From Bolinopsis microptera (taxonomy: Eukaryota; Ctenophora; Tentaculata; Lobata; Bolinopsidae): 64,000 nucleotides of DNA. The stretch is taken from assembly GCF_026151205.1 (NCBI RefSeq), contig NC_087076.1, positions 21,198,828 through 21,262,827 on the forward strand. Reading direction: 5' to 3'. A model generated the notes under the pieces. It made no database searches. It was not told the DNA's origin and saw nothing but the letters and a program-made list of their open reading frames with translations. Shown here piece after piece: positions 4,501 to 29,995 of this stretch; position 1 is the stretch's first letter; each line of letters starts with the position of its first letter. The position numbers and the translations under genes were made by a program.

Positions 4501-5397
4501 TAAATAAATGATATGTATTTAACATTGAATAATGTTTATAAATGTTTATAAACACAAACATGTCTCACAGTGATGGAGTTATGTGTCTTTTTCAGGGTAT
4601 TCATCCCTTATCAATGCCATGAAGCTCGTTTCTGTAATCTGTATTCTGAAATGGTGATTTGATTGCCGAGTGACACATTATTTCTGGTATTGTACATGTA
4701 ATTTCTGGTGATCAGCACAGTTCATGTTCAAAATTTGATCACAGTCAAGTTCAAAATAAGTTAGATAATATCAATGTGTGTATTAAACAGCGATTGAATT
4801 TTAGGAATTCAGCACAATAGAAGTGTTATCACGAAAAATCACTTTAAAAAAGGTCATTTTACTAACCTTCAATTACTAACCATCAATTCTCATTAATTGG
4901 TTGAAGCTGATATCCTTTCTTTCTACCTGTTGAAAATTCGTATAGTCTTTATACTGCATCGTCTTCGTTCCTGGAGTTGGTTATTAATAACTTAAAATAA
5001 GAGTAAATTATCATTAATTTACGATAATATAAAGATCTTCTCGCTTTTGCCAAATTTGAAATGGAAAGCACCGGATCTCCAGTCAGTTTCTAATATTTGC
5101 TAGACAATATTACCAAGCTATCAATGGTGTATGTAATAACAATTAACTAGATTCTACTTATTAAGTATAGGTACGTACCGTAATTGTAGCTGCTGATTAA
5201 GCTGAAAGTTGGTTTAAAAACGAAGGCAAATAACTTTGCTTTTCTAAAGTTGTTATATATTAGGGCTGGATAAACTTCAGCAGTTGAAAACTAATTACAA
5301 CACTACAAATCTATTACATTTATTGAGTATTATGTAACGCGATGGAAATATTTTAAGCGGGTAATATCATCCTGTCCAAACCCAGGATACATAACAT

Positions 5398-5706
5398 CAG
5401 TGGCGTAACAAAGGGCCCCGCTGACCCCGCTGTGCGTGACTGCGGGGGGGGGGGGCGCCGTCTTAGGGGGGGGGGCGCCAAATCGTCGTTTGAATGTGGG
5501 ACAATTTCGAAAACTTAACTTAAGCACTAGCAAAACTGCGCGTTTTGCTCTAGAAACGCACTTTTTTAGAGATTTTACCGGCGTATTCTCCCAAATCACC
5601 TAATTTGTTCAATTTTAGGGAGGGGTACCAAAAGGGGAGGGGGCGCCAACAGGGGGGCGCTTTTTCGGCGGGGGGGGGGGCGCCAACAGGCAACGTTTTG
5701 CCACTG
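5398..5706. mobile_element. Non-autonomous hAT-like element with 8-bp target duplication
   Basis: The element starts CAGTGGCGTAAC and ends GTTTTGCCACTG, imperfect inverted ends typical of hAT. It is flanked by a perfect 8-bp duplication, CATAACAT (5390-5397 and 5707-5714). The interior has long G runs and GGCGCC motifs and encodes nothing. Fragments of the same family lie at 16245-16657 and, inverted, at 46393-46625. Confidence 0.92.
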
Positions 5707-5736
5707 CATAACATGAAGACTTTCTTGTAACTTTGT

Positions 5737-6043
5737 ATGAGAAGTATTAATATAAAGATATAAGCCTTATAATGTTACAATTTTTTGGATATTGATTGAG
5801 CAGTTTTTTTGAAAGATTTCGACGAAAAGAGTAATCTTTCGCTTCTTGTACTTACTGCTCACAGCTCGTAAAATGGTCAACAAAGGATTCACATTTTGTC
5901 TTTTCAGTTGAAAGGTTCGTTCCCGCTGAGCAGTGAGCACTGAGCAAGGGTCTGAAACAAATTGTTATAATATGATATAATAGCAATACATCACACCTTT
6001 GCTAAATCTTTGAATAGATTTTGAATTTAATTTAATGTTAAAC
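5737..6043 (+). repeat. Family A repeat, partial unit
   Basis: It matches the second half of the 555-bp array units and the inverted right-arm block 27370-27600. Confidence 0.75.
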
Positions 6044-7395
6044 CGATATTACACTTTTACATTCGTTGCTAAATTGTAGCTCTCTTATCAGCAGTTTTGT
6101 GTGCGCGTTGAATTATCTCTCTGGCTTTGTAGATTTGTATACATTGTTTGTACATTTTCTGTACAACGTGTACGATGCCTTTGCCGCTACAGAATGAACA
6201 CTTGGATATGCTAGATGATGCTATGGTTATGAATGGCCAGTTCCTTACGGAGTATGTGAATCAGATACACATGGCAACTAACAGTATTTTCAAGGAGATT
6301 AGAAGTAAAATCGGTGCCGAACACAACGATGATGTGCAATTTGACAAACTGAACCAGAGAAGTGTGCCTAGAGAGAGTTTATCAGAATGGCTAGAGACAG
6401 TGTGCTGTTTGCTGAACGATTATTGTGGTCCATTGTTACAATCTGCCACAGAAACAGCTACCGACAACAGGGTGTTCAGGAAAGAAAAAATAGTAGATGC
6501 GAATAAGATCATAGAACTGCAAGAGAAGTTACTCTCTAAGCAAGAAGAAGATATGACAAAAATCAGTGATCTGCAGGAGAAGTTAGCTTTGAAGAAGGAT
6601 GACGAGATTGGAACTGTGAAAAGTGCAGCTCAGAAAGAGATTAAGACCTTTTCGTCTCTGTTGAAAAACACGTGCAAAAACGCCTTTGCACCGAAGAAAA
6701 TCCAAGCTGCAGTAAAAAGGGTTGCCCTAGAAGAAGATCGAAGTAAAAGTCTGATTATATTTGGGATCCCAGAGACTGAGGAGAACTTGGATGCTAAGGT
6801 ATCTGGTATTTTGTTGGACCATCTCAACGAAAAACCAAAAATTTTGAGATGTAATAGAGTTGGAAAGGACACAAGTGAACGAGTCAGACCAGTTAAATTC
6901 ACTTTGTCAAGCTCAGATCAAGCTCGTACCATCTTGAGCAAGACTAAGTTATTAAGACATGTAGACGGGTTTACTTCTGTTTACATAACTCCTGATAGAT
7001 CAGCTGCATACAGAATAGCCTACAACAAAGTTGTCGTCCAGCTACTCAATAAAAGGACAGCAGAGCCGGACAAAGTTCACGTAATCAGGAACTTTAGAGT
7101 CATTAGCTCGGAGAAGGAGCCTTGAGAGTTTTATATTTTCTATAAGTACAATATTATATGTTTTGATTCATTGATTAATTAATTGTTGCTAGGGCCCAAT
7201 GTTATTGCGGGTGTGGTATTTACTGCACACTACCGTGTTTTGGTTACCCCTCTCTCAATACATAATTTGGCTTTCGATATTCTGGGATAGTGAAAATTAG
7301 GGCTATATCGGTTTTTTCCTTTTATAACTGGGTTTATTTAGAAGCATTCAATTCTGTATAATTATGTATTGTTTGAAAAGTTTTAGATTAAAAAA
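6044..7395 (+). mobile_element. ORF1-only LINE-like retroposon (HAL1-like organisation)
   Basis: The right duplication arm (27330-27400) is continuous where this block interrupts the left arm, giving an empty site. The inserted unit is about 1.35 kb, carries one intact ORF and ends in an A-rich tail (about 7387-7396). TTAAA occurs at both edges and may be the target duplication. No reverse transcriptase frame is present. Confidence 0.7.
6148..7125 (+). CDS. LINE ORF1-like protein (coiled coil plus RRM-like domain)
   Basis: This open frame of 325 codons may start at the second Met (6175), which follows a GTACAACGTGTACG stretch and gives 316 residues. A charged, heptad-like region around residues 105-165 (repeats of LQEKL) suggests a coiled coil. 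It is followed by RSKSLIIFGIPE and CNRVGKD-x-RPVKF motifs (about residues 205-260) and a VYITPDRS motif, the layout of the RRM-like nucleic-acid chaperone of L1/CR1-type ORF1 proteins. Such proteins bind the element's RNA in the cytoplasm. No ORF2 follows, so any mobility would depend on a partner element. It could instead be a domesticated gene, because the frame is fully intact. The family call rests on motif order only. Confidence 0.75.
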   Translation: MYIFCTTCTMPLPLQNEHLDMLDDAMVMNGQFLTEYVNQIHMATNSIFKEIRSKIGAEHNDDVQFDKLNQRSVPRESLSEWLETVCCLLNDYCGPLLQSATETATDNRVFRKEKIVDANKIIELQEKLLSKQEEDMTKISDLQEKLALKKDDEIGTVKSAAQKEIKTFSSLLKNTCKNAFAPKKIQAAVKRVALEEDRSKSLIIFGIPETEENLDAKVSGILLDHLNEKPKILRCNRVGKDTSERVRPVKFTLSSSDQARTILSKTKLLRHVDGFTSVYITPDRSAAYRIAYNKVVVQLLNKRTAEPDKVHVIRNFRVISSEKEP

Positions 7396-8300
7396 AATAC
7401 ATATTTATAAATAATATGTATTTAACATTGAATAATGTTAATAAATTTTTATAAACACAAATATGTCTCACAGTGATGGAGTTATGTGTCTTTTATCGGG
7501 GTATTCATCACTTATCAATGCCATGAAGCTCGTTTTGTAATCTGTATTCTGAAATGGTGATTTTATTGCCGAGTGACACAATATTTTTGGTATTGTACAT
7601 GTAATCTCTGGTAATCAACACGGTTCATGTTCAAAATGTAAAATTTGGTCACAGTTAAACTGGAAAATAATTAAGATGCTTTAATTTTGTCTTTGCCTTA
7701 TGATGAGTTATACTTTAGTTTACTTTTACACATTTGCTCACATCACTCACAGTCAGCCACTCTGACATGGTTAACATTTAACAACAACCTTCCTTGTGTT
7801 GTTGGTTAATCATATGATCGGGATATAAATACCTCATTTCATTTCATAATAGCAATGTGTTTTAAACAGCAATTGAATTTTAGGAATTCAGCACAATAGA
7901 AGTGTTGCAGTATATGACGAAAAAAAAACAAACACTTTAAGTGGACATTTTTCTTACTAACCTTAAATTCTCATAAATTAATTGGAGGTGATATTCTCTC
8001 TCTTTCTTCCTGTTCATCTCTATTCTGTCGACATTCGTATAGACTTTATACATCATCGTCATTGTTCCTGGGGTTGTTAATTATTAACTTGAGATAGGAG
8101 TAGATTATCGTTAGACCTTATGAAGATCTTCTGGTTTTTGTTATTTGAAATGGATATCACCAGATTTGCGGTTAGTATCTAATATTTGCTAGACTATATC
8201 ATCAAGGGTTTATGTTTGAGCTGGATTCTACGTACATCTCACGATTGTATTAAGTGTTTTCGTTTAAATTGAATATATTTATGAAACAAAGTGTTTTACT
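7396..8300. repeat. Family A repeat, diverged long form
   Basis: It resembles 4505-5310 and is matched inverted by 26560-27370 in the right arm. No coding potential is visible. Confidence 0.7.
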
Positions 8301-8651
8301 ATGTTATAATGAAAATGCATTCTTTGTTAAATTTTTGAATTTAAATTGATTTTACATTTTATTTTGCTTTGTCAAATGCTGTTGTGTTGGGATCTCAGAA
8401 CAGGTTACCTCGATAACTTTTCTGGGGACTTATGGGTACTGGGTTTCTGCTGTCATACTTTTCCATCCGGAAACTCAAACACACATTTTCTTATTTGGAT
8501 ATCTAAGTTAGATTGCAGTATCATCTGAGCTATTTGTCATAGCCCATCAACTGTAAGATTAAATTAAATCAGTTTTCTATAGTAATATAACCATTAACCA
8601 ACTCTCCCCCTTACGACATTATTTTACCCCCTTTCGTCAGTTATGCTGATA

Positions 8652-11600
8652 CTACCCTGGTTGTACGAAGAGTTTAGTTATCCTTTTGTAGTGATGATTA
8701 TGGTCATTTAGCATATCCGCCTCTACAATACCTGTATTTACACACTCGGGTTCATTAAAATCGAAAATAAATTCCGTTCCTGAGGTGCAGGTCACCTCGC
8801 TGCTCCCTTTATGGAGAGCTCTGGAGTCAACACAATTCACTTCCACCACGGTTCCTGGGACTACTGGGAACTGTGTTGTTGTTCTGATCGCAGTTCTCCA
8901 CTCAGGCTTCAGTCCCGTACAGCTCACTGTCGATATGTCATATTAAATCACGTTAAATTGATTAATAAGGGTTATTTTGACGGTTTCCTGTGTTTTCTTC
9001 CGCAGTTCCGCGATTTAGTTTTCCTGTCCCAACCCGAACCCTTTCAAGCAACCTCAAATATAACTATACTATCGTTTGCTCGGTGGTCCAAGTCTCAAAT
9101 ACTGTATACAATTTACCATTCTGTAGCGCAGTTAAATTAAATTTAAAACATAACAATAATATAAAATTTAAAGTTATCTTACCACAGGCAGTTTTGTTAG
9201 TGTTTGGTTTCCATCCAGCGTCGCATGTCTCACAGCTTGTCATAGCATCATTCCGATATGTTCCTTCCCCACACGGCTCTGGAATTATAACGTTATATAT
9301 TATTACAACTGGTAAATCGTTGTGGAAGATAAGGAAATCGTTATTATATAAGTACACTTCAGATGTGTTAAATCAAATTAGATTTAAAACAATAGGTGAA
9401 TAATTAAATATCCACACAACCACGGTTTTTTGATAGAATTATTACCACCCAGACTCTTACGGTTCTTGTCTTTTCTTACCACAAATTTGCCTTCTTGATT
9501 CTAAGCCCTATCTGGCGCCTTATCCTGATCCCGTCTTAACCCTTAGCCTATCTTTGCCCATCTATATAATATAGATATAATCATCTCAGCTCTATTTAGA
9601 AGTTATTGTGAGTACCAATATCCTCGGTTTTCATTCTATAATTGCACAGTTATTTCAAATTTAAAACACAGCAATAATATTAAATATAAGCTTCAAAGTT
9701 ATCTTACCACAGGCTGTTTTGTCAGAGTTTGGTGTCAATCCAGCGTCACATGTCTCACAGCTTGTCATAGCATCATTCCGATATGTTCCTTCTACACACG
9801 GCTCTACAATTATAACGTTAAAAATGGCAAATCGTTGTGGAAGATAAGAAAATCGTTATTATATAAGTACACTTCATATGTGTTACAATTACATAAGATT
9901 TAAAACAATAGGTAAAAAATTAAATATCCACACAACCACGGTTTTTGTTAGAATTATTACCACCCAAACTCTCACGGTTCTTGTCTTTTCGTACCACAAA
10001 TTTGCCTTCTTGATTCTAAGCCCAATCTGGCGCCTTATCCTTATCCCGTCTAGTCTTAACCCTTATCCTATCTTTGCCCATCTATAATCTATATAGATAT
10101 AATCATCTCAGCTCGGTTCTTGTTAACAATTCTTACCACATTTTGTTCTCCCTGAGTTTCGTTCCTGGCCAAGTTCACAAGTTGTACACAAGGCTGCTCC
10201 TTCTGAACTGATCGTGTTATCAAGGCATTCTTCACATGTGTTCATTTCAATGTTCTTGTAGCTTCCAGCTGGACATAGCTCTGAAGAATTAGGAAATCTT
10301 TAAGCAGCAATTCGTTTGAACTACCTTATTTAGAAGTTATTGTGAGTACCAATATCCTCAGTTTTCATTCTATTATAGCACAGTCAATTCAAATTTAAAA
10401 CACAACAATAATATTAAATATAAGCTTTAAAGTTATCTTACCACAGGCTGTTTTGTCAGAGTTTAGGGTCAATCCAGCGTCACATGTCTCACAGTTTGTC
10501 ATAGCATCATTCCGATATGTTCCTTCTGCACACGGCCCTGGAATTAATAACGTTAAAACTGGCAAATCGTAGTGGTAGATAAGAAAATCGTTATTGTATA
10601 ACTATTTAAGTACAGTTCAGATGCGTTACAATAACATTAGATTTAAAACAATATGTGAAAAATTAAATATCCACATATTCCACGATTTTTCGAGGAAATT
10701 ATTGCCACCCAGACTCTTACGGTTCTTGTAATTTTCACCACAAATTTTCCTTCTTGGTTCTAAGCCCAATACTAATTTAAATTGCTATCAGTCATTAGGA
10801 TTAAAACTAAAAATTCGGCTCATCAACAAACTATATGGCACAATCCACATATTGTGTAAACTCTGCAAAATAAATATTGAACCAAAAAAGTTTTGAGTTT
10901 GTTTGGTAAAATACCTTACTGCTTATGTTCAAGATATTTTGTAAAAACATCAGTTTTCAATTGATAATTGTTTCAACCTTAATAGCTGAAAATGGCTTGT
11001 CTCCATGATGTCTACTACAAAATATGCAATATTTCTAAATCATAGTTAGCTATTTTGCAATCTGAAAGAATATGATTTCATTTCATTCGGAGAACAGTAA
11101 ATGATAAAATGATGACCACTTTATTAAGTTATACATAACAATATGTACTAACTATTTACTATCCTATATCCCATATCCTATACTATATGCGTTTATGTTA
11201 AACAACTAAATAACATACTTAAAATTTAGACAGAAAACACGTAATCACGAGCTTACGAGAGAATCATCAAGTTGTCTTATTTTTAAATTAAAGTTATTGT
11301 TTGTTAAACCAAAGCTTGTTGTTATTAGTCACCTGGTCCGTAGTAATCAGATGCTGAGTCAGAGGAAAAGAACTTTATCTTTGTCACGTCTCTGTTCCAG
11401 TACGTGCTCCAACTACTGTCACTACACGTTGCTTGAGAGATCAGTATGTTGAGCACCTCTACCTCGTTACAGTGTATCACTAGTCTAACACCTGCAGTTC
11501 TGGTTAGAGTGATACGCCACACCTTGTCAGTAGGAGAGGGGGGATTAACATGGAGGTTCATGTAGGGTGTGTTGCAGTAGCCGAGGTTGTATTGTGGAGT

Positions 11601-14600
11601 AGAGTCGAAGTAGAGCTGGACTAATCCTGCATAATCTATTATAGAAGAGTAGAAGCGCACTTTCACCGCTTCGCCACTCCTCAGCCCACTATTAGTTTTA
11701 ATTTCTAAAGGTGTCGACTCAAGATCCCACTCTATTTGCACCTCACGTTCGACTGGTAACCAACCTGTTAATTGTATGTTTAATTCATGACTACTGATCA
11801 GCAACGATTAATGAATATCATGAATTTAAAGAAGAGGTGTTCTAGCAAAATTGTAAAGGAAATGTATGAATGTCGCCCATAGTTTATTCTCAGAATTTAA
11901 GGACCCGACCATACTATGACTGTTGTCACCATGACTGTTGTCACCCGAGCGTGCTAAATCACTCTACAGTCAACCTTCGAGATTGTTCTAAAAGGGCCCC
12001 CGATGGTTGTAACCAACTTAAATCGATGTATTTTCGAAAGCTGATTCCGAATCACCCCCATGACATAGGGTTAAAATGCTCTCCTGACGAGATATTGGCG
12101 AAAAACTGTATCGATCACGTGATATGACCGTATAAGGAAGTTAGTCTAATTTCTCGTTAGGGTTAGGGTTTCAGCATATGTTTTTGTTAAGGATTGGGTT
12201 AGGGTTAGGGTAGGGATCAGATTAGAGGGTTAGGGTACCGAAAACTCGTTCAGAACCAGCTAAAGAATGGGTTAAAAAAGTCACGTGACACTCGAGTGTA
12301 GAGTGATTAATCATCATCCGTTGTCACCATGACTGTTGTCATGGTGCGGTCAGATGTAATGACCATATGTACGTAGTGTGTTTATAGGGCGTGCCAAGGA
12401 TACGTCAAAAGTCGAACCTAGCTGATAATCCGTGCCTGAAGTGACTGCAGGCACAGTCTATTGATTCAGTACTCGTGCCAACTGTTATGGATAACGTGAC
12501 GTCACGATTACCTAATAAGGTCAATATTTTGCGTGATATGGACATTTGCAGTGCAGAGTGCAAAGATAGTACTATAGTACAGAAACATCCGTCTAAAAAA
12601 TCAATCTACTGACAGAATTAGAAAAAGCTTCCAAAGGATTTATGACGTTTTTAGGTTCAATTTTAAGTTTCATTCGGGTGGCCAACTTTTCCTAAATTGT
12701 CGACGTGTCTTAAGGCCACTTTTTGCCACTTTTACCACTTTTTACCTCCTTTCTTGTTTGTCAAATATCTTCAGCTGTGAACATCGTAGAAGGATACGAA
12801 TTAATAGAGGGTTATTATCATATCGACGAGAAAAACTTTTGTAAGACAAATGTTCATGTCAGACAATTAGATAATTGGATAGTTACTAATTACCAAAATT
12901 CATAAACATTTTTATTGGCTCAAAATGATCGGAATTTCTTGAAACACACAGGTAGTTTTTGAAAAAACTTTCGAAAATTTAAAATTTTTTTCCGCCAAAA
13001 GTTTTTTCGAATAGAAGTTCTAATGAAAGCATCAAACCATGGTTTGGTGGCCGAACTGCATCCGACCGAATTGGTCCCCACTGGGAACCGAATTGGTCCC
13101 CACTGGGAATCGAACCCCAGTCGTCCGTGTGGGAAGTAAATGTATTAAAACCACTAAACCACCAGGCCGACGTGACAGCACTCACTTTTTACTATTTTCA
13201 TTCCAATTATCATAGTATGTTTAGAGATCGAGCCTAAAATCTTGACAAATAGCACAGTGTGTTAAGAGGCCGTGCCTGTACTCGTGACAACAGTCATAGT
13301 ATGGCTCTTACTTCCTTTTCCCATAGGTAGTATACAAATTTGCGAAATTTGTGACTAAAATTATGGTATTACCAAAATGTTTGTAACCAAATTTATTGTG
13401 AACCAAATTTATTGATCTTAAGGTATACTTTTATGCGATACATCGCATAAATATCATTATGGTAAACTTTTAATCAGTATATTATGTAATCATTTGATTT
13501 AACCTGTTATCCGGTTTGCAGGAACCATGTAATTCAAATTTTTCCCGCTAACTTCATTTCCCGATTACTTCGCTGCCTGTTAGGTGCCTTGCCGTCGCTC
13601 GATAGGCAGCAGTATTTATGCGACCAGATCTGTAAAAAATTTTCTTACAACGACATATTATGCTATCTTTTATAATCCAATATTTTAGATCTTTACACCT
13701 TGTTGTATTTGCGGAGGATCAAAGCATACAGACTGTTACTGGTTACAATGCTAAAAAACAGCAAACTTTTTTCCCTAGAGCGTTAATTGTATTGACGGAG
13801 GTCACTAGTATCAAGATCTTAGTTTTAAGTTATATTTAAACAAAACACTTATTTAACAATAGATGTATCTCCAATCAGATATAGATAATGTAACTACACA
13901 AGCCACAGCACTTAAGTCTATGATATGTAGGCTGAGACATCTAGAAAATGCCGTTTTGAGTATAAGTTGTTAACTCAGAGTCAGACCCCTGTTTGTTTCA
14001 GCTGTTAGATTTAGCATGAAGCAAAGAGAGGAGTGAATTTCCGAGAATTAAACAATTTGAACTTATTGTAGTGACACCAGATGGATATTTAATGTTATCA
14101 TTTAGGTCTTGATTCTTTTCTGTTTGATCCCTGTCACCCTGTGGTCAATTCAAAGATAATACTTTCAACACTCGCACTTCTACTGGATAAACTTCACCTC
14201 ATTGGACACACTATCTACTTATCTACAGCTCTTATCCCGACGTACACAAGTATCAGCCCGAAAGCAGCTCAAAAGGATTTCTACTGAGTTTGATTAATGT
14301 AGTAAACTTAAATTCGTTACAATTTGCAGGCCGTGAATTGATGGGGAAAACGAGCGACCGATTTCATTCCCGGTATCATTTTGTATAAATTTGAGAAAAA
14401 AAAGGAGATCCGGTCGATGGTCCAATCTACCCAATTTTTGGTTTTGGTGAAACATATTTAATACTATACTATCTCATTTCACCGGGTACAATTGTGGTAT
14501 ATTTCTATTTTCTATAACGATAAATTATTGATATGTTTTTGATCAATGATAAGTAAAATAGCAGCTCATGCATGCACATGTCACGTACCTAGCTTACCAC

Positions 14601-14664
14601 AGAGAGATAGCGAGATGATTTGTAGGAATATTAACTTCGTTTGAAGATTCCGCATGTCTGCCAT
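8652..14664 (-). CDS. Secreted modular protein, left paralog (signal peptide, beta-rich module, 4 GCC2/GCC3-like modules, sushi-like module)
   Basis: Seven exons on the minus strand: 14664-14598, 11764-11333, 10537-10442, 10280-10137, 9803-9708, 9278-9183 and 8926-8652, totalling 402 codons with stop. All junctions are GT-AG and phase 1, so each internal exon is a symmetric 1-1 module. Exon 1 encodes MADMRNL and a hydrophobic signal peptide (LIFLQIISLSLC). Exon 2 is a 144-residue module with a VWRITLTRTAGVRLVIHCN motif; I recognise no family. Exons 3, 5 and 6 are 32-residue repeats with a C-x-EGTYRNDAMT-x-CETCDAG pattern, like ephrin-receptor/GCC2_GCC3 modules; exon 4 is a longer relative. 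The last exon has four Cys in a sushi-like pattern and runs into a short tail. A donor at 8731 (phase 1) could instead splice onward. The combination recalls SVEP1-like matrix proteins; the role is unknown. Confidence 0.8.
12156..12236 (+). repeat. Degenerate interstitial TTAGGG repeats
   Basis: Two clusters of TTAGGG-type units (12156-12169 and about 12197-12236) are separated by unrelated bases. Confidence 0.8.
12975..13190 (-). mobile_element. tRNA-derived SINE
   Basis: On the minus strand an A box TGGTTTAGTGG (13161-13151) and a perfect B box GGTTCGATTCC (13116-13106) lie 45 bases apart, the spacing of a tRNA-type internal Pol III promoter. The acceptor and T stems do not pair properly, so this is not a working tRNA. 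A duplicated GGTCCCCACTGGGAA stretch and an AT-rich tail follow downstream. Confidence 0.78.
13305..14229. other. No supported gene
   Basis: AT-rich intron sequence of the left secreted-protein gene. I see no domain, exon with conserved match in the other arm, or RNA gene. Confidence 0.5.
14230..14450. mobile_element. Half copy of the long-TIR MITE
   Basis: It matches the right half of 3992-4500, including the ACGAGCGACCGATTTCATTC stretch, and ends near the GGTTTTGG terminus. The inverted counterpart is 24514-24710 in the right arm. Confidence 0.75.
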
Positions 14665-15256
14665 TCTACATTGTTAGAAAGATCGATGTTTAACTTTAAA
14701 CTAATTAACTCGCCAGAGTGCTATCACGTGAATTAAATGAATTTGTGGATTTGCAGCCGAACGAAACGGTTTTATAAACCCTAATCCTATCCACTTCCAG
14801 TAGGCATGACCCCGAAGCTGATCACTATAACCGTAATTCGTGTTTTACAAGCCTGTCGTGTGACGGGTGACCAAAACAATTTTTGCCGATTACTTCTTGG
14901 GCAAGCGTTTCAACCCTATACATTTATAGCAGCCCTATATATTTAAAGCAGGTAATTCGGAATCAGCGTCCAAAATACATCGAACGAAGCTTATACTATT
15001 GACATTTATATTTGTTTGGAGAGGCGAATCATACACAGTTTATTGACATTTTACATACTTTCATGGCCGGGCTCTTTCCTAAACGTTTCAAATATCATCG
15101 GCGAGTGATAACTAGCAGAAAGCCCATGCTCTACACCATTCTGCCCTCCTCTAAAGACTAAATAATCGGGTCTACAATCACCATCTTGCGATTAATTTTG
15201 CGATTAAATAATTTTAATCTTATACCTTTCTAGATGCAAACATCATATTTATGATA

Positions 15257-16177: not shown

Positions 16178-16244
16178 TATAGAGGCAACAAAAAGTTGCA
16201 TTCAAAAGAAAAAACGGTTCGGCTCTATCACAAATTTCATCTTG

Positions 16245-17960: not shown

Positions 17961-18074
17961 GCGACGAATCGTGTTCGCAAGATCACTTCGAAATAAGTGA
18001 CGTGAACCGACCCGACGAATCACATAATGATCCATAAGAAGGATAGGATGTGACCTGAACTTGGAAATAAGTCA

Positions 18075-18205
18075 GGATATTTTGTCGCAGTAGAGTACGC
18101 TACCTGGATCGTAGTGCGACACGTACCCTAGTGCGACAGAGGGTGTTTTTGTCGGACTTCGCACTAGAGTACGTGTCGCACTAGAGTACGTGTCGCACTA
18201 CAGTA
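18075..18205. repeat. Cluster of short direct and inverted GTGCGACACGTAC-type repeats
   Basis: Several copies of GTCGCACTA-GAGTACGT and its complement occur within 130 bp. Confidence 0.7.
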
Positions 18206-18366
18206 CGATTACCGTCCAGTTATGAGGGTTATTTTTTATTGTTGATTGGGACTGGCCAAAAAGTGCTAACCAATGTTAACGGAATAAAAATTTAATGCAC
18301 AATAATTATGTGAGTTGTGAAATTTCTGAAATCCTAGTCCTACTCCTACACACCTAATATTATGTA

Positions 18367-18415
18367 TTCATTATCTTTTCTTAATCTTATTATAATTGTA
18401 AGAAAAGATAATGAA
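18367..18415. repeat. Perfect 17-bp hairpin
   Basis: TTCATTATCTTTTCTTA (18367-18383) pairs perfectly with 18399-18415 around a 15-base loop. Confidence 0.85.
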
Positions 18416-18599
18416 AAAATGATAATATACCTACAATTCTACGTGCTTATTGTCACAAAATCTTAATTTCTCTTTTAAAGTAAAAGAAAATAATCTGAGC
18501 ATTAAGATTCTATAAATGAGCCAGTTAGTGAAGACAGGAAAGGTGTGCAATGGGAGAGCCAAGCTTGCAAGATTCGTCGAATTATTATATGTTATACTT

Positions 18600-18765
18600 A
18601 TAGGTACTCATTTTTTGTCATTTCCTTGTAGCCCAATGCGATTGTTTAACTTTAACTTTAAGTTTATGAAGAATTATGTAATTACAGATAGTGTCATTTC
18701 CTTGTAGCCCAATGCTAATGTTTAACTTTAAGATTTATGAAGACTTATGTAATTACAGAGAGTAG
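18600..18765. repeat. Tandem duplication of about 75 bp
   Basis: TCATTTCCTTGTAGCCCAAT and the following roughly 60 bases occur twice in direct tandem. Confidence 0.85.
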
Positions 18766-19499
18766 CAGAGAAGTTTTGCGTGTGGCTCGAAAACACAATT
18801 TTTAGACCAAAAATTAGTTTTTAGCAATTTTAAACGGGAAAAACGTCCGCGGTAAATCTAGATTTGCAGAAATCAGGAGTTAAAGCCAAAGGTGAGGCAC
18901 AACTCTAAAATAACTCCGGCCAGTTCTGGGTCCTGGCATAACATAGGTTGAGAGACGTCATAAGACAATCTTGATATGCTAAAATGAATGTAATGGTAAG
19001 TGCCAATTAAATCAGGATAAACTCTGTTTATTAACATGAGACTCCATGTTGACAGTTTAGAGCTTATGTACTAAGCAACGTAATACCGTGAATTATTGAA
19101 GTGGTGGAATTGTTGGTTGCAGCCTGCTCGACGCAGATTACTGAACTAAAACCTTGACCGGAGGATAATGATGTCCTTTAAAAAATAAAAGCTGTGCGGA
19201 GAATTGCAGGTAAATCTATAAGTTTATAAAACACATTACGCAGACACGCACAAGGATTACATTTTAATTTCCCGCGTCGAGTGCGAAGAACGAGGGATTG
19301 TTATGAAAATAACGCTGACTTGCTTTAGCACGAGGGGTTATTTTAACATAACTTTAAGCGTGCAGGCGTTTTGTGTTATAAACTCTTCCGGGATGTTGCT
19401 AAGTGCTAGGGCTAATTCGTTTTAATATTTACTTTAAATTCTAGCTAAATTAAAATATGATCAGTATGGATTAAGAAATGGAATTGGGACGTATATCAT

Positions 19500-19912
19500 T
19501 ATCACAGTGTTGGCAAGCATGATCACCGTCGCCCTTATAGTTATACTCACTATACTATTTACCCCTATACTATTATACCCCTTTTACTGTTTTCAGGCAT
19601 TAAGACTCACCGAAAGAAGTTCAGCAGGCATATCTTAAGTTTAAAACATTCTAATCCAATTTCAAAGATGACAGGAATAAGAAATAATTATTTGGGGGTT
19701 TTTAAGAAAATTTGCGCAAAATACGCGCCAGCACTGTTATACGAAATTCGGTAAAAAACTCAAAATCGCCATATTCAGATGCCTTAAAAACCACGTTAAA
19801 ATTGAGTTAGAGATCTGAAACATTTTTCTAAACTTCAAACAAGTTTTCAAGTTTCAGGAGTATCGGGAAGTGGGTTTTCTGGAACCCCTGTTTTACAATA
19901 AATTGTCGTGAA
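19500..19912. repeat. Dispersed repeat C, copy 2
   Basis: It is a direct-orientation match to 2385-2925 but without the double-hairpin insert. Confidence 0.75.
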
Positions 19913-20496
19913 GTATATCTATAATCTATCTATATATTATAATATGTAGTCAGTAGTTGAGTATTCTAACATTACCCTATTTGATTTTGACAGCTAAAAG
20001 AGCTGGAATGTGGTCAGTATCTGGAGGTACGACCTCATCTGACTCGTTTCAACAACGACAAGAATATTATGGAGAACGTAGCAATGAACATGGACGTGAG
20101 GAGGGTGCTATCACCAGGGTCCCTTCCCGGGGTAAAAACTCGTTTCGGGAGACCCAACTGGTTCAAGGACTTTGTAGAAATTGGATAGAAGAACCCCGCG
20201 TGAGTAAATGGATAATGAATTTTGCATGGTGTAGGTCTGCTCAAACTTCTAACACTTGTACAAGTATAGAGTACTGTAAATACAGTACTGTGCTATACTA
20301 CAGGGATTTTATGTCATGAACAGGGAGTCATAATTAGTATTTAGTAATACTCAGATATGCTAGCATGAATTTGTCTTATCAGCATGCATTTGTTTTATCA
20401 GTAGCAGTTTTTGAGATGCAATTTTATGATATTGAGTTCATGAAATGAATAAATTAAAAGTTGAATTTTGGTCATTATGTTTTGGGGCAATTCGGT

Positions 20497-22707
20497 AATG
20501 TGGCCCAAAAGTGACTACCCACGCGCAACCTTTTAATAACTCACGTAATTCGTCTCCAAATTGTACCAAAATTTCAGAGATTATAGATGTGGGTCAAACT
20601 TAGATTTCCTGAAAGTTTCGTAAGCCACGCCAAATTACAGTGGGCATGGCGTGACACTCCCTCTTTTTCACTATTGTCTTCATAAAATGAGAATGCTTTA
20701 AACTAAGAACTCAACATTTTTTGCACACATTTAGCTTGATGATTTAAAACCTTTCTCAAAGTTTCTAGTTCATTGTTCAAAATTTGGGTGAGTTATGACC
20801 ATTTCAAAATCCATCGGATACGTGATCCGAGCACTTAGTCAGTGATCTTTGCACTCAATCAATCACGTCACTCAATCTGATCAAGAGTAAGGCATTAGTG
20901 TTTAATAAAACAAATATTTAATAAAACAAGTATTTATTTTTACGGCACAATCAAACAATATCAATAATACATAATGTGTGCAGAGCCGTACCGGATGTAG
21001 AATTTGAGATATAATATAGATTAGTTACCATGTATTAGGGTCATCTCGATTTTGAAGGGATAGCAAGTGCTTTTTAAGGTTCGATTTAATAATACCTGAC
21101 GAGGCTGAGAAGTCTGAATTTTTGGAAGAACCCGGGATTATTATCCCATTTTCATTAGCATCACATATTTCGAATACATAGGGGATGAGATCATTCCAAA
21201 TTTTCGTAGAGGTGTACAAAAAGTTCTGTTGGGAGATATCTAACCTCAGTAATGGGACAATCAGACAAAGTTTTTCATTTCTAGGACAGAACTTGAAAAG
21301 ATATTTAATCGACTGGGGGACATCAAATTTAAGAATTTTGAATAGTTCCATAAATGTATGGTACATGTGCAGATTTATTAATGATTGATTGAGGAGCACT
21401 ACCCAGAGGCATCACTCGGCACTAACGCCTTAAAATCTTTAATTACAATCAAATATAAATATATGCACACAATGTATAAAATATGAATAATGTATAAAAT
21501 ATGATTACGCTATTAGCAAATTTAAATAGTACTATTAAGAATTTCTAAATAACTCTTATCTCTTTACATAAATTTAGAACATCGACACAGGATCTGAAGA
21601 ATGCGCGGTGATATTTTTATCTTGTAAATGACAGTGAAATTGTGCGGTAACGATAGCATTGTAAAAAATGCTCGAAGGTAGTCATATTTCGTTATGAGGT
21701 TAAAGTTTTGTTGCTCGTTATTATCAACGTATGTTGTACCAAATTATTTAAATTTCTAAAAGTACAAAATTTGAGTTATTCCAGTCCTCGTCCTCCGGGC
21801 TAAGTGCTTGTGCAGTAAGCAAATGCTTGCTGACTGTAGAATTGAATGAAATAAGGAATTTGTCTTGTAGGCAAGTCGTGACGTATTTTATGTCCTTGTT
21901 AATAATGTTAAGTTATATAACTTAGGCCCAATGTAAGAAATGCTCTTGTCTGAATTACATAAACAGTTAAATGGTACTGCAAAGAACTCAGGTTCTCTTC
22001 TAGGTGCGTTTAACTTTAAGTTTGAAACAGTGAACATTCTTATATAAATATTTGGTGGTGCAGTGTTAGAATAAACTTTGTGCATTAAGCATAATATACA
22101 TTTAGCTATCACGTTCGGTAAAGCTAGTACTTCTAGTTTATTGAACATTTCCTTTGTGTGTGAAGGTGTACTGTTCAGATCTTTGTCATAAAAATAGCGG
22201 TGGTATTGGTTATCTGCAGCGCGAATGCCCTTTTTCTGGGTCGAGAAAACGGAGTTTAGCGATCTTGTTCCCCAAACTGTGCAGCAGCTTAGTAACTAGT
22301 ACAAGCTGTTGTATATCAACTTGAGTGCTTTGTTAGGTACTGAGCCTTTGAGTTTGTAGAGAATGCCCGCATTTCTAGATACTTTAGTGGCTAAATGTCT
22401 AATGATCACGGCAAGAAACTTTTCGTGATCACTTTGCTTTAATCGTTCACCTCCCATGTAGATTTCTATATCCTTTCTTCAGGTAGAAAAACAATCGTTG
22501 TTCCGCAGTAAAGGGAGGATAGTTAACCATTTTGATGATTCAATGGATGGTTCATTCCTTTTTATTGATTGTAAGGAACGAACCTGTGACTAGCAGACCT
22601 AACAAGCCCTGACATGGGGACACCACCATTAATTCGTGTTATAGCGTTTTAGGTGCTGTCAGCTGTATAGGCCGGCCCATAAGTAGGCTGCAACCAATCA
22701 AGCGGTG
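20497..22707. mobile_element. Disrupted mariner-like element, copy 2
   Basis: 20497-20900 matches the long inverted terminal repeat at 38138-38500. 22470-22707 matches the transposase 5' region at 39168-39392. LINE debris occupies the middle, and a Helitron fragment cuts the far end. Confidence 0.8.
20930..22465 (-). pseudogene. LINE (CR1/L2/jockey-like) reverse transcriptase 3' fragments
   Basis: On the minus strand 22450-21888 translates to a reverse-transcriptase thumb-like region (GILYKLKGSVPN, then TQKKGIRA and EMFNKLEVLALPN) with an in-frame stop after IYNSLY, ending near ISYIGPKLYN. A second C-terminal fragment (21399-21025) has FLYTSTKIWNDLIP, the usual C-terminal motif of such proteins. 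They appear to be remnants of two related copies. No catalytic YxDD region is left. Confidence 0.75.
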
Positions 22708-23021
22708 CAATTTTTCTATTCAGAGAATTGTCTTTGTACAATGTTTGTACGACCGCCCACGTGCAAATTAGGTAAAAAGCAAAAGGTTGCAAAGTAACCA
22801 TGGTAACGAGGGTCGGAGGGTTATTACACACACGTGCACGCGCGAAGATTGGCGAACGGCATTTATATCGGTTTTGTTGATATTACGTTGTGTTTAGTGC
22901 GACCAACATTTTAATCAGCTGTATCTTCGGTGGGGATGAATACTTTTTGACACGATTAAAACTGACTGCCAAAGAATACTATTAGCTTATTAGGTCCTTC
23001 CTGTGACCACGGGTTTTCTAG
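22702..23021 (+). mobile_element. Single Helitron copy, degraded 5' end
   Basis: Same family as 15257-16177 in the opposite orientation. It ends GGGTTTTCTAG at 23021 followed by T. The 5' end is eroded where it adjoins the mariner relic. Confidence 0.8.
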
Positions 23022-23724
23022 TAATATTATAAAACGATTATCACGTGTGCCAAACACCACTCAAGCACTCAGGAATGCAATACAAGTAAAAAAAATACAT
23101 TGTAGGTAAATTTGATCGTGCGTGGTGTAACCGCGGCAAAATTTGTGTTAGTTTTGCTGAACCAAAAAAACAATTTTTGGTAATATTTGTTTATTATATT
23201 TTAGACGTCAAATTATATGGAGTTAAATGTCACTACCTATTTCACTAACTATTATCTAAATAAATTTTTGAATTACGTAAAATTGCAAATAATTGAGATC
23301 TTACAATACCAGATGACCTCAGGCTAATCATTCTTTCGCATTTCGCAACGATCGTTCTTTCGGTAGAGATGGATTCACTTTAAAAGTTCATCTGGTGGCG
23401 GTGCCAAAGCGCTAATATAATGTACGTGTTATCTGAATGTTCAAGAAATGTTATCTCCCATAGTATTGTCCTAATATATACTGAGAGCTCTTGTGGATAC
23501 ACCGTTTTCTTGAAATATATGCTTAAAACTATGAGCTGTATTATACTAGCAACCTCTGTTAATAGCATTGCCATTAGCTTGCAGTCTGCGTACAAGTTAC
23601 TCGATCATTAGCCCATCGTAGCAACTTTACAGAAAGCCGTCCCACCACCCTGAGCTCTCAGAGAGAACGAGGGAAGACTCACGATCTCGATTGGTGGATT
23701 GCAAATACGTCTAACTCTACTAGA
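23022..23724. other. No supported gene
   Basis: AT-rich spacer. The overlapping short open frames at 23380-23611 have hydrophobic content only and no recognisable family. Confidence 0.5.
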
Positions 23725-23795
23725 CAGAAAATTGTCCACATTACCATTAGGTCTAGACAGTGTCTAGGCCCAATGGTAATGTGGACCATTTTCTG
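23725..23795. repeat. 71-bp palindrome with 1-base centre
   Basis: The 35-base arms 23725-23759 and 23761-23795 are inverted copies with three mismatches. Confidence 0.88.
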
Positions 23796-24296
23796 CAGCA
23801 TTAGCCATGAGACTGAGAGCGAACTCTCTCCAAGGTCACCACAACTAAGTTCAACCCTTTGCCTTTGCGTTCAATTCTATAGCTCTCCAGTTTCACACAA
23901 TCGACTCCGAAGAAGGCGTGTGTTGAGTGTTGACAAGATGAAAATGAAGATGTCAATAGTATTAGCTTCGTTCGATGTATTTTTGACGCTCATTCCGAAT
24001 TACCCGCTAAAAATATAGGGTTGAAACGCTTGCCCAAGAAGTTATCGGCAAAAACTGTAATTTAGGTCACACGACAGGCTTGTAAAACACGAATTAAGGT
24101 CATATTGATCAGCTTCGGGGTCATGATTACAGGCTAGGATTAGGGTTTATAAAACTGTTTCGTTCGGAAATTCATTTAAGTCACGTGATAGCACGCTGGC
24201 GAGTTAATTAGTAAACTTGTACTATGTAAGTATGTACTTTCCTCAATCTTCAGTTTTGACATTTCGTTTAAACATCGATTTTTTTAACAATGTAGA

Positions 24297-26309
24297 ATGG
24301 CAGACATGCGGAATCTGGAAACGAAGTTAATATTCCTACAAATCATCTCGCTATCTCTCTGTGGTAAGCTACGTAACATGTGCATGCATGAGCTGCTATA
24401 TTACTTATCATTGATCAAAAATAGGTCAATAATTTATCGTTATAGAAAATAAAAATATACTATATACCACTTATAATACCCGGTGAAATGAGATATTAAA
24501 GTTTTATATATTTTTACCAAAACCAAAAATTGAGTAGATTGGACCATCTACCGTATCTCATTTTTCCAGACAAAAAGTAAGTAGATCAATTTAAGTTACC
24601 GTTCTCAAATTTATGCAAAATGATACCGGGAATGTAATCGGTCGCTCGTTTTTCCCATTTATTCACGGCCTGAAAATTGTAACGAATTTAGGTTTACTAC
24701 ATCAATCAAACTTTTTGATATGGGCAATTTAGTTCATTTTTTGTGGTTTTTTTCGCCTTAGTATCCACATTTAAACAGATATAAAGCTATAACTTCCAGA
24801 GAATATGTAGTTTAGGCTAACCTTTCATATAAAGTAAGTTTCATTCAAAAATATTGATATTTGACCAATTTATGGGACGAAATCTACCAAATTTGGTGCG
24901 TATGCCCAAATATGGGCATACGGTTTTTGGCTCATAGCTCAGTCATTTTTTGTCCAATCTTGATGAAATTTCATATACGAGTTCAGGAGACCACTAGCTA
25001 CAAGTAGAGCACCATAAACTTGGGTTTTGGGCATGTTCAGGGTATTTGGCTAAATTGGGCCTAATTTGGACCAAATATAGGCGTGGCTGCCCTGCGCGCA
25101 CCGTTTGGCGGTTGGGGTCCGGTCTTAGTTTTTTGGTCAACTGTTTCACAAAATCAATCAAGTTTCACAAAAAAATACCCATCGGTTCAACAAACTACGT
25201 GAATTTATGGAACATACTTTCAAACTAAGTAATTTGACAACGCAGACTTAACAGTATGGTCGGGCCCTTAAATTCTGAGAGTAAACTATGGGTGACATTC
25301 TTACAATTCCTTTACAATTTTGCTAGAACACCTCATTTTATATTCATAAATCGTTCCTCAGTAGTTATGAGTTAAACATACAATTAACACTTAACAGGTT
25401 GGTTACTAGTCGAACGTGATGTGGAAATAGAGTGGGATCTTCAGTCGACACCTTTAGAAGTTAAAACTAATAGTGTGCTGGGGAGTAACGAAGTGGTGGA
25501 TGTGGTCTTCAACTCTGCTGGCCGGGGAGACGTTGCAGGATTAGTCAACATCCACTTTAGCTCTACTCCCCAGTACTTTCTCCACTGGTGCAGCACATCC
25601 AAGCATAACTTCACTGTTAATCCTCCCTCTCCTACTGACAAGGTGTGGCGTATAACCAGAACTGCAGGTGTTAGACTAGTGATACACTGTAACGGCGTGG
25701 AGGTGCTCAACAAACTGCTATCAACGTGTATTGACGGTAGTTGGAGCACGGTCTGGAACAGAGTCGTGGCAAAGATAACGTTCAGGTCCACTTACGTCGC
25801 ATCAGATTACTACAGACCACAACCAGGTGACTAATAACAACAAGCATTGGTATAACAAAGTATCAATTTAAACTTTGATTTATAAATAAACTAACTTGCT
25901 GATTCTCTCATGTCATAATTTTATCAATTACTGTTCTCCGAATAAGATAAAATCACATTCTTTCACTAAAGGCAGAGCTATAATAATGTTATGTGATAAA
26001 TTTGAATTAACTGTGCTACAGAATGTAGCACACAACCCAATTATTATTAATCAGTTTAACGTGATTTAATATGACATATCGACAGGGAACTGTACGGGAC
26101 TGAAGGCTGAGTGGAGAACTGCGATCAGAGCAACAACACCATTCCCAGTAGTCCCAGGAACCGTGGTGGAAGTGAATTGTGTTGAATCAGGAGCTATCAA
26201 TAAAGGAAGCAGCGAGGTGACCTGCAGCTCAGAAACGGAATTTATTTTCGATTTTAATGAACCCGAGTGTATAAATACAGGTATTGTAGAACTAGAAGCG
26301 AAACCCTAA
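24297..26309 (+). CDS. Secreted modular protein, right paralog (signal peptide, beta-rich module, sushi-like module)
   Basis: Three exons: 24297-24363, 25398-25826 and 26086-26309, 240 codons with stop. The signal-peptide exon differs from the left copy's at one residue (L-E for L-Q). Exon 2 (429 bp) is clearly homologous to left exon 2 but is one codon shorter and has IT-RTAG where the left has ITLTRTAG. Exon 3 holds the sushi-like four-Cys module. Introns are GT-AG and phase 1. Reading through the conserved potential donor at 26281 reaches GIVELEAKP and a TAA stop that lies in the first CCCTAA telomere unit. The four cysteine-rich exons of the left paralog are absent. The gene may be functional, or it may be truncated by the telomeric tract; if the donor at 26281 is used, further exons would be needed and none are seen. 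Confidence 0.72.
24514..24710. mobile_element. Half copy of the long-TIR MITE
   Basis: It starts ACCAAAACC and matches the left part of 3992-4500, inverted relative to 14230-14450. It lies in intron 1 of the right secreted-protein gene. Confidence 0.75.
24720..25235. other. No supported feature; repeat-like
   Basis: This intron segment has no counterpart in the left arm, so it is probably an insertion. I see no termini or coding potential. Confidence 0.5.
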
Positions 26310-26371
26310 CCCTAACCCTAACCCTAACCCTGACCCTGACCCTGACCCTGAACCCTAACCCTAACCCTAAC
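26303..26371 (+). repeat. Interstitial telomere tract (CCCTAA/CCCTGA)
   Basis: About eleven 6-bp units, CCCTAA flanking a block of CCCTGA variants. The left arm has unrelated sequence at the corresponding place (about 8540-8700). Confidence 0.95.
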
Positions 26372-28445
26372 CCATCAATCTAACTTAGATATCTAATTAA
26401 GAGAATTTATGTTTGAGTTTTCCGGGTGGAAAAGTATGACAGCAGAAACCTAATACCCAGAGCTAGAGGTCCCCAGGAATAGTTATCGAGGTAACCTGCT
26501 CTGAGATCTCAGCACAACAGCATTTGACAAAGAAAAATAAAATGTAAGATGAATTTAAACTCAAAAATGTAACAAAGAATACATTTTTATTATAACATAG
26601 TAAAACAGTCTGTTTCATATATAATATGTATATTAAGTTTAAATTAAAACACTTAATACAATCGTGAGATGTACGTAGAATCTAGTTCAATGTTACAACA
26701 TAAACCCTTGATGATATAGTCTAGCAAATATTAAAAACTAACCGCAAATCCGGTGATTTCCATATCAAATGGGAGAAAAAACCAGCAACCATATGGCAAA
26801 TTTTTATTAATTAACAACCCCAGGAACAAAGACGATGCTGTATAAAGTCTATACGAATGTCGACAGAAAAGAGATGAACTGGAAGAAAGAGAGATAATTT
26901 AAGCTCCAATTAATTTATGAGAATTTAAGGTTAGTAAGAAAAATGTCCACTTAAAGTGTTTGTTTTTTTTCGTCATATACTCCATGTCAGAGCGGCTGAC
27001 TGCGAGTGATGTGAGCAAATTTGTAAAAGTGAACTAAAGTATAACTCATCATAAGGCAAAGACAAAATTAAAACATCTTAAATTTTTTCCAGTTTAACTG
27101 TGACCAAATTTTACATTTTGAACAATGAACATTAACCGTGTTGATTACCAGAAATTACATGTACAATACCAAAAATAATGTGTCACTCGGCAATAAAATC
27201 ACCATTTCAGAATACAGATTACAAAACGATCTTCATGGCATTGATAAGTGATGAATACCCCGATAAAAGACACATAACTCCATCACTGTGAGACATATTT
27301 GTGTTTATAAACATTTATAAACATTGTTCAATGTTAAATACATATTATTTATAAATATGTATTTAACATTAAACAAAATTCAAAATCTATTCAAAGATTT
27401 AATAAAGGTTGGATGTATTGCTATTATATCATATTATATCAATTTGTTTCAGACCCTTACTCAGCGGGAACGAATCTTTCAACTGAAAAGACAAAATGTG
27501 AATCCTCTTGTGAGCAGTAAGTACAAGAAGCGGAGGATTACTCTTTTCGTCGAAATCTTTCCAAAAACTGTTCAATCAATATCCAACAAATTTTAACATT
27601 ATTAGGCTCATATTAATACTTGTGTGTTGTAATTAGTTTTGAACTGCTGAAGTTTATCCAGCCCTAATATATAACAACCATAGAAAGGCAAATTTATTTA
27701 CCTTCGTTTTTAAACCTACTTTCAGCTTTAATCAGCAGCTACAATTACGGTACGTACCTAAACTTAATCTGCAGAATCTATTTAATTGATACTTTGATAG
27801 CTCATGGTGATATAGTCTGGCAAATATTAGAAACTGACTGGAAATCCGGAGATTTCCATTTCAAATGGCAAAAGCGAGAAGATCATTATATTGTTAATTA
27901 GTGGTAATCTACTCCTATCTTAAGTTATTAATAACCAACCCCAGGAACGAAGATGATGCTATATAAAGACTATACGAATGTTCAACAGGAAAAAAGAGAG
28001 GATATCAGCTTCAACCAATTAATGAGAATTGAAGGTTTTATAACATGCCCCTTTTTAGAGTGCTTTTTTGTGATATACGGCAACACTTCTATTGTGCTGA
28101 ATTCCTAAAATTCAATTCCTAAAATTCAATTGCACACATTGCTATTATCTAACTTATTTTCGACTTGACTGTGATCAAATTTACTTTCACATTTTGAACA
28201 TGAACTGTGCTGATTACCAGAAATTACATGTACAATACCAGAAATAATGTGTCACTCGGCAATAAAATCACCATTTCAGAATACAGATTACAGAAACGAG
28301 CTTCATCGCATTGATAAGTAATCAATGCCTTGGTAATGAATGCCTTGAAAAAGACACATAACTCCATCACTGTGAGACATATTTGTGTTTATAAACATTT
28401 ATAAACATTGTTCAATGTTAAATACATATTATTTATAAATATGTA

Positions 28446-29235
<790 letters not shown>

Positions 29236-29368
29236 GTCCAAACAGACCCCAAACACTAACAGTTCCCCCTCCCCTAATAAGCTTATAGTATAACATTACA
29301 GCGATCATCTTCCGGGCTAATCCAATTATGACGCTACTTAAATGCAGCTATAACATATTATACAGTAA

Positions 29369-29891: not shown

Positions 29892-29995
29892 TGAGAGAGA
29901 GAGAGAGAGCAAGCCCCGTAACTCTTGCCGTTCTGCTCAAGCCATTTTACAAGCCATAACTCTTACCGTTTTTTTTGTATAACCGACCTGAAATT

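Follow-up and report, generated by a model that had tools for sequence, protein, structure and literature searches.

The two predicted genes in the window (the whole stretch of DNA that was analyzed, 64,000 nt) appear to be members of a large gene family in a ctenophore-like genome. The family radiated recently and encodes recognition proteins that are probably secreted. The first domain of this family changes its amino acids far faster than neutral DNA, and the function of the family may well be defense. With high confidence in the four points jointly, we found that a phase 1-1 exon encodes a 143-residue module with at least 150 copies; that in the window subfamily this module stands between a near-invariant signal-peptide-like exon and a downstream part made of cysteine-rich exons in variable number, a sushi-like exon, and a brief hydrophilic terminus; that strong diversifying selection acts on approximately 30% of its sites, which coincide between two subfamilies and alternate in an i, i+2 pattern; and that constant region and module are exchangeable.

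Predicted gene pair and module family

A sequence-only reading of this DNA had described two secreted-looking modular paralogs arranged head to head, and the gene models support this description. Its exon 1 junctions (14598 left, 24363 right) proved to be the exact exon 1 ends, and its exon 2 junctions (11764 left, 25398 right) the exact exon 2 starts. The modelled internal exons have AG/GT borders and enter in phase 1, in line with the phase 1-1 structure that had been proposed. The features are listed below; the signal peptides of both genes were assigned by eye.

Left gene (minus strand, predicted)
14598..14664, minus: exon 1, signal-peptide-like, MADMRNLQTKLIFLQIISLSLC plus a split G codon
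11333..11764, minus: exon 2, hypervariable module, 143 aa, phase 1-1
10442..10537, minus: cysteine-rich exon, type C1 (PF07699 on the spliced protein)
10137..10280, minus: cysteine-rich exon, type C2 (PF07699 on the spliced protein)
9708..9803, minus: cysteine-rich exon, type C1 (PF07699 on the spliced protein)
9183..9278, minus: cysteine-rich exon, type C1 (PF07699 on the spliced protein)
8732..8926, minus: sushi/CCP-like exon (family profile)
6050..7395, plus: recent element in the last intron, 330-aa ORF (genome copies)
5760..5951, minus: terminal exon (sequence)
130..2322, minus: 554-bp × 3.9 tandem array with four more terminal-exon-like ORFs, e.g., DPYSVGTNLSTDKTKCEPFVNLFRQL

Right gene (plus strand, predicted)
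23148..23948, plus: upstream stretch common to other module loci (81% in the best matches)
24297..24363, plus: exon 1, signal-peptide-like
24717..25185, plus: transposable-element piece in intron 1 (genome matches)
25398..25826, plus: exon 2, hypervariable module, 142 aa, phase 1-1
25980..26025, plus: relic of an intron of the kind found after C1 exons (46 bp, 85%)
26086..26280, plus: sushi/CCP-like exon (family profile)
27453..27520, plus: terminal exon, DPYSAGTNLSTEKTKCESSCEQ*

Both genes run beyond 4505..28445, the range first assigned to the pair, and terminal-exon-like ORFs lie on each side, including a further one right of the right gene at about 30328. With the acceptor at 5951, the left terminal exon is in a shifted frame (14-nt insertion relative to the right copy); a putative acceptor at 5925 would give the family's usual AGTNLSTEKTKCESFVDHFTSCEQ end. 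Rfam gave 0 matches within the window.

The module occupies a single exon, and its copies lie on all 13 large contigs and on C45 of the 264.65-Mb genome. All 150 copies that were scored, of 410 candidates, matched, with a worst listed E value of 3.7e-18. A phase-1 AG and a phase-1 GT were present near the ends of 111 of the 112 full-length modules under a permissive donor test, and 105 of the 112 had the acceptor at its strict place. The module had been said to fall into no known family. Indeed, among 107 members, no Pfam family matched more than 5 (best E value 4.1e-4, for Ig-like_Pom152_1 in 2/107; CUB in 3/107, best 0.07), and a PDB profile search gave a best E value of 0.69. Since nothing consistent emerged, assignment to a known domain was rejected. 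Likewise, the module family is not reported in those parts of the literature that the search reached, including portions of PMC10232365, PMC11797021, PMC6278862, PMC11184263, and PMC4204807.

Leader exons were counted with a 20-base pattern of exon 1, which has 26 genomic occurrences with 0-1 mismatches. These 26 leader exons point to paralogs with the same secreted architecture, which was traced in full in four genes. In those four genes, 0-9 cysteine-rich exons follow the module. They resemble the Ephrin_rec_like/GCC2-GCC3 repeats (PF07699), for which the spliced left protein (left gene only) is above the cutoff (33.3 versus 23.1 bits; E value 4.3e-8), but here they are laid out as alternating 96- and 144-nt exons. 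The exon read as sushi-like shares four conserved cysteines with Sushi/CCP (PF00084), although both window copies are below Pfam detection and two relatives reach 16.0-16.4 bits against a cutoff of 20.7. A family profile of eight rows, two of them added from traced genes and being the more sushi-like ones, matched CR2, Crry, DAF, and factor H in PDB (complement receptor 2, E value 3.7e-5), which supports its assignment as a CCP module. The predicted end is short and soluble, and a membrane anchor is not visible.

Relationship of the two arms

Self-BLAST of the window bore out the inverted collinearity that had been claimed for the two arms, with matches spanning the entire gene unit:

14287-15013 versus 24712-23942, inverted, 76%
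11257-11915 versus 25909-25253, inverted, 80%
8722-8968 versus 26290-26044, inverted, 93.5%
7906-8515 versus 26984-26376, inverted, 84%
7362-7770 versus 27405-26982, inverted, 91%
4504-5308 versus 28436-27620, inverted, 85%

The spacer between them, described as roughly 9 kb, is 15013-23942 (8.9 kb). Such collinear similarity across the whole gene unit is what a single inverted segmental duplication would leave, with cassettes gained or lost between its arms. However, the partners are not nearest relatives. With the right gene's module as query, the left module came at row 28 of 150, and 26 other copies scored higher. For promoter plus exon 1, searches in either direction each gave 12 other places that outscored the partner (identity was 75% with the partner and 85% with the best other place), and for the 3' region three other places outscored the left arm. 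In the tree, the right module joined L016/L020/L014 at 83/79, whereas the left module had no firm place, and the two were not joined. Finally, a copy of the left constant region lies 0.31 Mb away and is 98-99% identical. On these tests of module, promoter, 3' region, tree, and left constant region, we rejected the origin of both arms in one duplication as very unlikely; later gene conversion from elsewhere could mask an original sister relation.

The difference in cassettes between the genes is real: four cysteine-rich exons are present in the left gene and none in the right. It had been interpreted as a gain or loss caught between two arms, and this part of the claim did not hold. In the right gene, a 46-bp piece (25980-26025, 85%) survives as a relic of the left gene's post-cysteine-rich intron, and a gene on C9 likewise has no cysteine-rich exons; therefore, we ascribe the difference to family-wide cassette turnover. 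Its polarity can be read in part, since persistence of the relic indicates that the right lineage lost these exons.

Exchange between constant region and module is documented on C5. There, C5:20895130-20897619 matches the left block from the cysteine-rich exons to the sushi-like exon at 99% identity, and next to this copy of the constant region (98-99%) the module survives as a broken remnant; the breakpoint lies in intron 2. Such joining of constant regions to unrelated modules shows that exons are being shuffled within one genome. The stretch 23148..23948 has counterparts immediately before four modules located on C2 and C3 (L014, L016, L020, L022); in the tree, three of these four modules cluster weakly with the right module. 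The element in the left last intron has at least a dozen near-full-length copies at 97-99% and is absent from the 98-99% copy of that intron at C5:20.898 Mb. The element piece in right intron 1 has at least 26 genomic matches at 90-91%, in 13 inverted pairs among the matches listed.

Diversifying selection on the module

Comparison of 53 module sequences by NG86 gave a mean dN of 0.214 and a mean dS of 0.174. The whole-exon dN/dS was 1.23 with a column-bootstrap interval of 0.96-1.56 (dN > dS in 474/500), and thus the excess of dN rests on sites and not on the average. Among 380 pairs with alignable flanks, dN exceeded dS in 323 and intron divergence in 367, by local alignment, which understates divergence. 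When 100-nt flanks were aligned end to end (1224 pairs used out of 1378), pN was higher than pS in 977 pairs and higher than flank divergence in 995.

The codon models, run with our own code on one tree with mostly weak forks, favored M2a over M1a in clade 1 (2dlnL 986), with 29% of sites at an omega of 5.75 and 32 module sites selected at P > 0.95. Six null simulations of this test yielded a 2dlnL of at most 0.8. In an independent subfamily of 15 sequences, the values were 270 for 2dlnL and 6.6 for omega, and 26 of the 32 selected sites were common to both subfamilies (Fisher p 2e-16). Sites picked in one subfamily had a dN/dS of 2.13 and 2.14 in the other (remaining sites, 0.81 and 0.60). 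M0 omega was 1.92 for clade 1 and 1.0 for clade 2. Within-gene controls, taken with the NG86 comparison, gave 0.53 for sushi (9 sequences), 0.55 for C1 (23), 0.67 for C2 (15), and 0.29 for the leader (4); dN above dS was not seen in cysteine-rich, sushi, or leader exons.

At selected codons, NG86 dS (0.318 versus 0.144) and third-position diversity (0.320 versus 0.110) were higher. Fourfold third-position divergence was not raised, being 0.093 at selected codons, 0.089 at the unselected codons between them, and 0.114 elsewhere. Because of this, we ascribe the former two values to multi-hit codons, and we conclude that selection, and not hypermutation or template-directed mutagenesis, explains the variable codons. 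PHI detected no recombination signal within the module exon (p 0.73), and gene conversion inside the module is therefore unsupported.

The selected sites alternate: 16 pairs were found at lag 2 (6.7 expected), a number reached in 0/5000 permutations (local permutation p 0.002), without excess at lag 1 or 3. The variable sites are aromatic, polar, and charged, with Y, S, G, E, D, and R enriched. Judged by its periodicity, the pattern resembles one face of a beta sheet.

A module that was a passive passenger of mobile DNA, most copies being noncoding debris, would fit the conservation of intron and promoter DNA between dispersed family copies, the transposable elements in both window genes, the broken module remnants, and the few listed copies with a stop. 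Nevertheless, this explanation is scarcely credible given that nearly all 150 listed copies are free of stops, that 111/112 modules keep splice sites and phase, and that selection in the module is codon specific.

Possible function and comparison with known systems

We propose that the genes encode lectin-like secreted recognition proteins, diversified by selection and with cassettes reshuffled in introns; this reading as a whole, defense included, we consider about as likely as not. The module would be a beta-sandwich with one sheet face binding ligand, and each gene would yield a soluble binding protein of its own specificity, in which the cysteine-rich and sushi parts would act as a stalk or as the portion that binds effectors; together, these two steps are fairly probable. 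That the targets are foreign (microbial or parasite surfaces), amounting to humoral innate recognition, is a more tentative step, to which we give slightly less than even chances. Fast-changing sites patterned like a sheet face are as expected if a surface is forced to track changing targets.

The main rival, which we regard as rather unlikely, is that the same surface is used in prey capture, as a colloblast glue or venom-like secretion matching varied prey. In venom families, too, the leader exon hardly varies and the mature domain evolves fast, as seen here. In addition, PMC6278862 describes an enrichment of Mnemiopsis colloblast candidate genes for sushi/SCR and lectin categories and for genes specific to ctenophores. 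However, variation is restricted to sites that alternate regularly, and these sites are enriched in Y, S, G, E, D, and R; both features fit a binding face more readily than they fit turnover across the surface at large. A role in recognition between individuals (allorecognition) or between egg and sperm could likewise produce strong diversifying selection on one inferred surface, but it is distinctly improbable. No specific paper emerged from the portion of the literature on ctenophore allorecognition that was searched, the dozens of dispersed genes (26 leader exons) differ from one polymorphic locus, and the predicted end is short and soluble, with no membrane anchor in view.

FREPs and VCBPs are hypervariable secreted immune families of invertebrates. 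Together with 185/333 of sea urchins and C1qDC, they share with the present family a multigene, secreted, modular, and fast-changing character. Unlike in these families, the variable domain of the present one matches nothing in Pfam or PDB consistently, its variable sites alternate as on a sheet face, and an immune role is a proposal. Two traits of hypervariable immune families were found in the present one, namely, many paralogs of secreted architecture and selection confined to the putative recognition domain. The abstract of PMC4204807 presents He185/333 as an anti-pathogen family that is highly variable and has codons under positive selection, and PMC6835236 deals with C1qDC family expansion. 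Expanded recognition families are known from many animals, but we found no report of the present one in the literature searched. If the proposed function is correct, a branch that is maybe sister to all other animals would possess a large repertoire of its own, built on a new scaffold, and the question of how diversified recognition arose would become testable. The sheet-face pattern recurs in two subfamilies and predicts ligand-contact residues.

Variable lymphocyte receptors are LRR proteins that are assembled somatically and diversified at beta-strand residues. The present module is alike in principle, with alternating beta-strand residues apparently forming the diversified face, but it is non-LRR, and its variation is germline variation between paralogs (one assembly). 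Conotoxin-type gene families also have a constant leader exon and a fast mature region; their product is a short cysteine peptide, whereas the module is a large domain with a conserved core, joined to modular constant exons.

Gene models and the module family

For the two head-to-head paralogs, the exons and splice junctions proposed in the sequence-only reading matched the gene models exactly. The internal exons of both genes are entered in phase 1.

Exons of the left and right genes
14664-14598, minus, left exon 1 (signal-peptide-like leader)
11764-11333, minus, left exon 2 (module)
10537-10442, minus, left C1 exon
10280-10137, minus, left C2 exon
9803-9708, minus, left second C1 exon
9278-9183, minus, left third C1 exon
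8926-8732, minus, left sushi exon
starting at 5951 or 5925, minus, left terminal exon
24297-24363, plus, right exon 1 (leader)
25398-25826, plus, right exon 2 (module)
26086-26280, plus, right sushi exon
27453-27520, plus, right terminal exon

Pfam analysis of the left spliced protein detected Ephrin_rec_like (33.3 bits; cut-off, 23.1) and no match for the module or the sushi exon, while a profile of eight sushi-exon sequences matched complement receptor 2 in PDB at 3.7e-5.

The genome searched comprises 264,652,675 bases in 232 contigs, the largest 13 of which (C1 to C13) sum to 258.07 Mb (97.5%); the window occupies C5:21198828-21262827. In a search with the right module, 150 of 150 scored candidates (410 in total) matched, so there are at least 150 module copies, with matches on every one of the 13 large contigs and on C45. 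From these matches, 113 distinct copies were collected and 107 were aligned, once partial, stop-bearing, and near-identical copies had been left out, as had a second instance of the right copy. Two cysteines are invariant in the aligned modules. Phase-1 AG and GT were found near the module ends in 111 of 112 full-length copies, with the AG at the strict acceptor place in 105. The leader exon is nearly fixed: a 20-base pattern from it had 18 exact occurrences and 8 more with a single mismatch (reversed control, 3 occurrences at up to three mismatches). Dispersed copies are alignable in introns and promoters too. Two module loci 2.5 Mb apart, L031 (C13:16142010) and L037 (C13:13653573), share 100% identity for 1.4 kb or more on each side, which points either to duplication in the very recent past or to an artefact of the assembly.

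Kinship of the two arms and cassette turnover

The inverted collinearity of the arms is real. Their proposed origin from one duplication was not borne out, since the module, the promoter with exon 1, and the 3' region all have closer relatives elsewhere. Among the matches listed for the right module, the left module stood in row 28; the partner was outscored by 12 other loci for the promoter and exon 1, from either query, and by 3 for the 3' region. In the module tree, the right module grouped with loci L016, L020, and L014 with weak support (83/79), and the left module had no resolved grouping. Furthermore, 23148-23948, upstream of the right promoter, matches DNA immediately upstream of the L014, L016, L020, and L022 modules.

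A second copy of the left block (11189 to 8700) lies at C5:20895130-20897619 with 99% identity, and the match extends at 98-99% to at least 5300. Just upstream of this shared block, the second copy has a broken module remnant, and similarity there is only 70%. We conclude that the constant region (the exons downstream of the module) was copied apart from the module, with a breakpoint in intron 2. The right gene retains a 46-bp relic of the C1-following intron, showing that its cysteine-rich exons were lost.

Absent from the second copy is the 1.35-kb element of 6050-7395, whose two flanks there show an 11-bp overlap, the outcome expected from a target-site duplication. This element contains one 330-aa open reading frame (6133-7125; no Pfam match), has at least 12 near-full-length copies at 97-99%, and is reminiscent of ORF1-only (HAL1-like) elements.

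Architecture of traced genes (SP, leader; M, module; C1 and C2, cysteine-rich exons of 96 and 144 nt)
C6: SP-M-(C1-C2)x4-C1-sushi-terminal
C9: SP-M-M-sushi-terminal
Window, left: SP-M-C1-C2-C1-C1-sushi-terminal
Window, right: SP-M-sushi-terminal

The repeat unit is the C1-C2 pair with its introns (about 737 bp), and longer C1-C2 arrays are located at C3 2887672-2893955 and C10 13770222-13777694. More distant subfamilies show other orders, with modules near sushi or cysteine-rich exons.

Diversifying selection on the module

To represent the window's subfamily, 53 rows of the 107-row alignment were picked on the basis of the conserved sequence that precedes the acceptor. The subfamily's mean dN and dS (NG86) were 0.214 and 0.174, an average that does not settle the matter by itself because the column bootstrap of the ratio spanned 0.96-1.56. 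M2a was favored over M1a with 2dlnL of 986 and omega of 5.75 at 29% of sites; 2dlnL did not exceed 0.8 in any of six simulations with M1a as the null. A second subfamily (n = 15) yielded 2dlnL of 270 and omega of 6.6, and 26 of 32 selected sites were common to both. Sites picked in one subfamily and scored in the other had a dN/dS of 2.13-2.14, versus 0.60-0.81 at the remaining sites. For the other exons, dN/dS was 0.53 (sushi), 0.55 (C1), 0.67 (C2), and 0.29 (leader), from few sequences and with some intervals reaching 1.

A locally raised mutation rate at the selected codons is ruled out by fourfold-site divergence, which was 0.093 there, 0.089 in the codons between them, and 0.114 elsewhere, compared to 0.097-0.098 (median) or 0.138-0.141 (mean) in the flanks. 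The selected codons were higher in NG86 dS and third-position diversity, which we read as multi-hit codons.

The selected module sites are 8,10 / 31,33,35,37 / 42,44,45,48,50,52,54 / 58,60,62,63,65-68 / 112,115,116,118,122 / 131,133-135, and also 95 and 143. Pairs at lag 2 were in excess (16 observed, 6.7 expected). The residues over-represented at these positions are Y, S, G, E, D, R, K, Q, and H, whereas few are V, L, I, or P. From this pattern we infer that the sites may form one exposed face of a putative beta-sheet on a conserved core. The family members would be soluble binding proteins differing in specificity between paralogs, and cassette turnover in phase-1 introns could supply new combinations. 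A defence-related target is our first choice, and use in prey capture is the second.

Other features in the window

The segment 24717-25185 is half of a palindromic element; at least 26 matches were listed at 90-91%, forming 13 inverted pairs with starts about 0.85 kb apart. At 130-2322, the units of a 554-bp tandem array have terminal-exon-like open reading frames and acceptors, possibly representing alternative last exons; similar arrays were found on C5, C8, and C9. A 1062-aa open frame at 42381-45569 with a PHD finger and a reverse transcriptase (PF00628, PF00078) looks like an intact retroelement. Judged by eye, an intronless 344-aa frame (61929-62963) resembles a seven-helix receptor, and 54104-58188 contains protein-kinase exon-like pieces (DFG, APE-side, and lobe motifs); Pfam at 0.001 gave no match for the former or for two frames from the latter. 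A repeat of roughly 307 bp (15256-16170, 22718-23032, 29350-29899) is present as three tandem units left of the left promoter and as a single inverted unit before the right promoter. Next to the right gene are long tracts of simple repeats, (GA)n and (AC)n (28701-29255 and 29947-30222).
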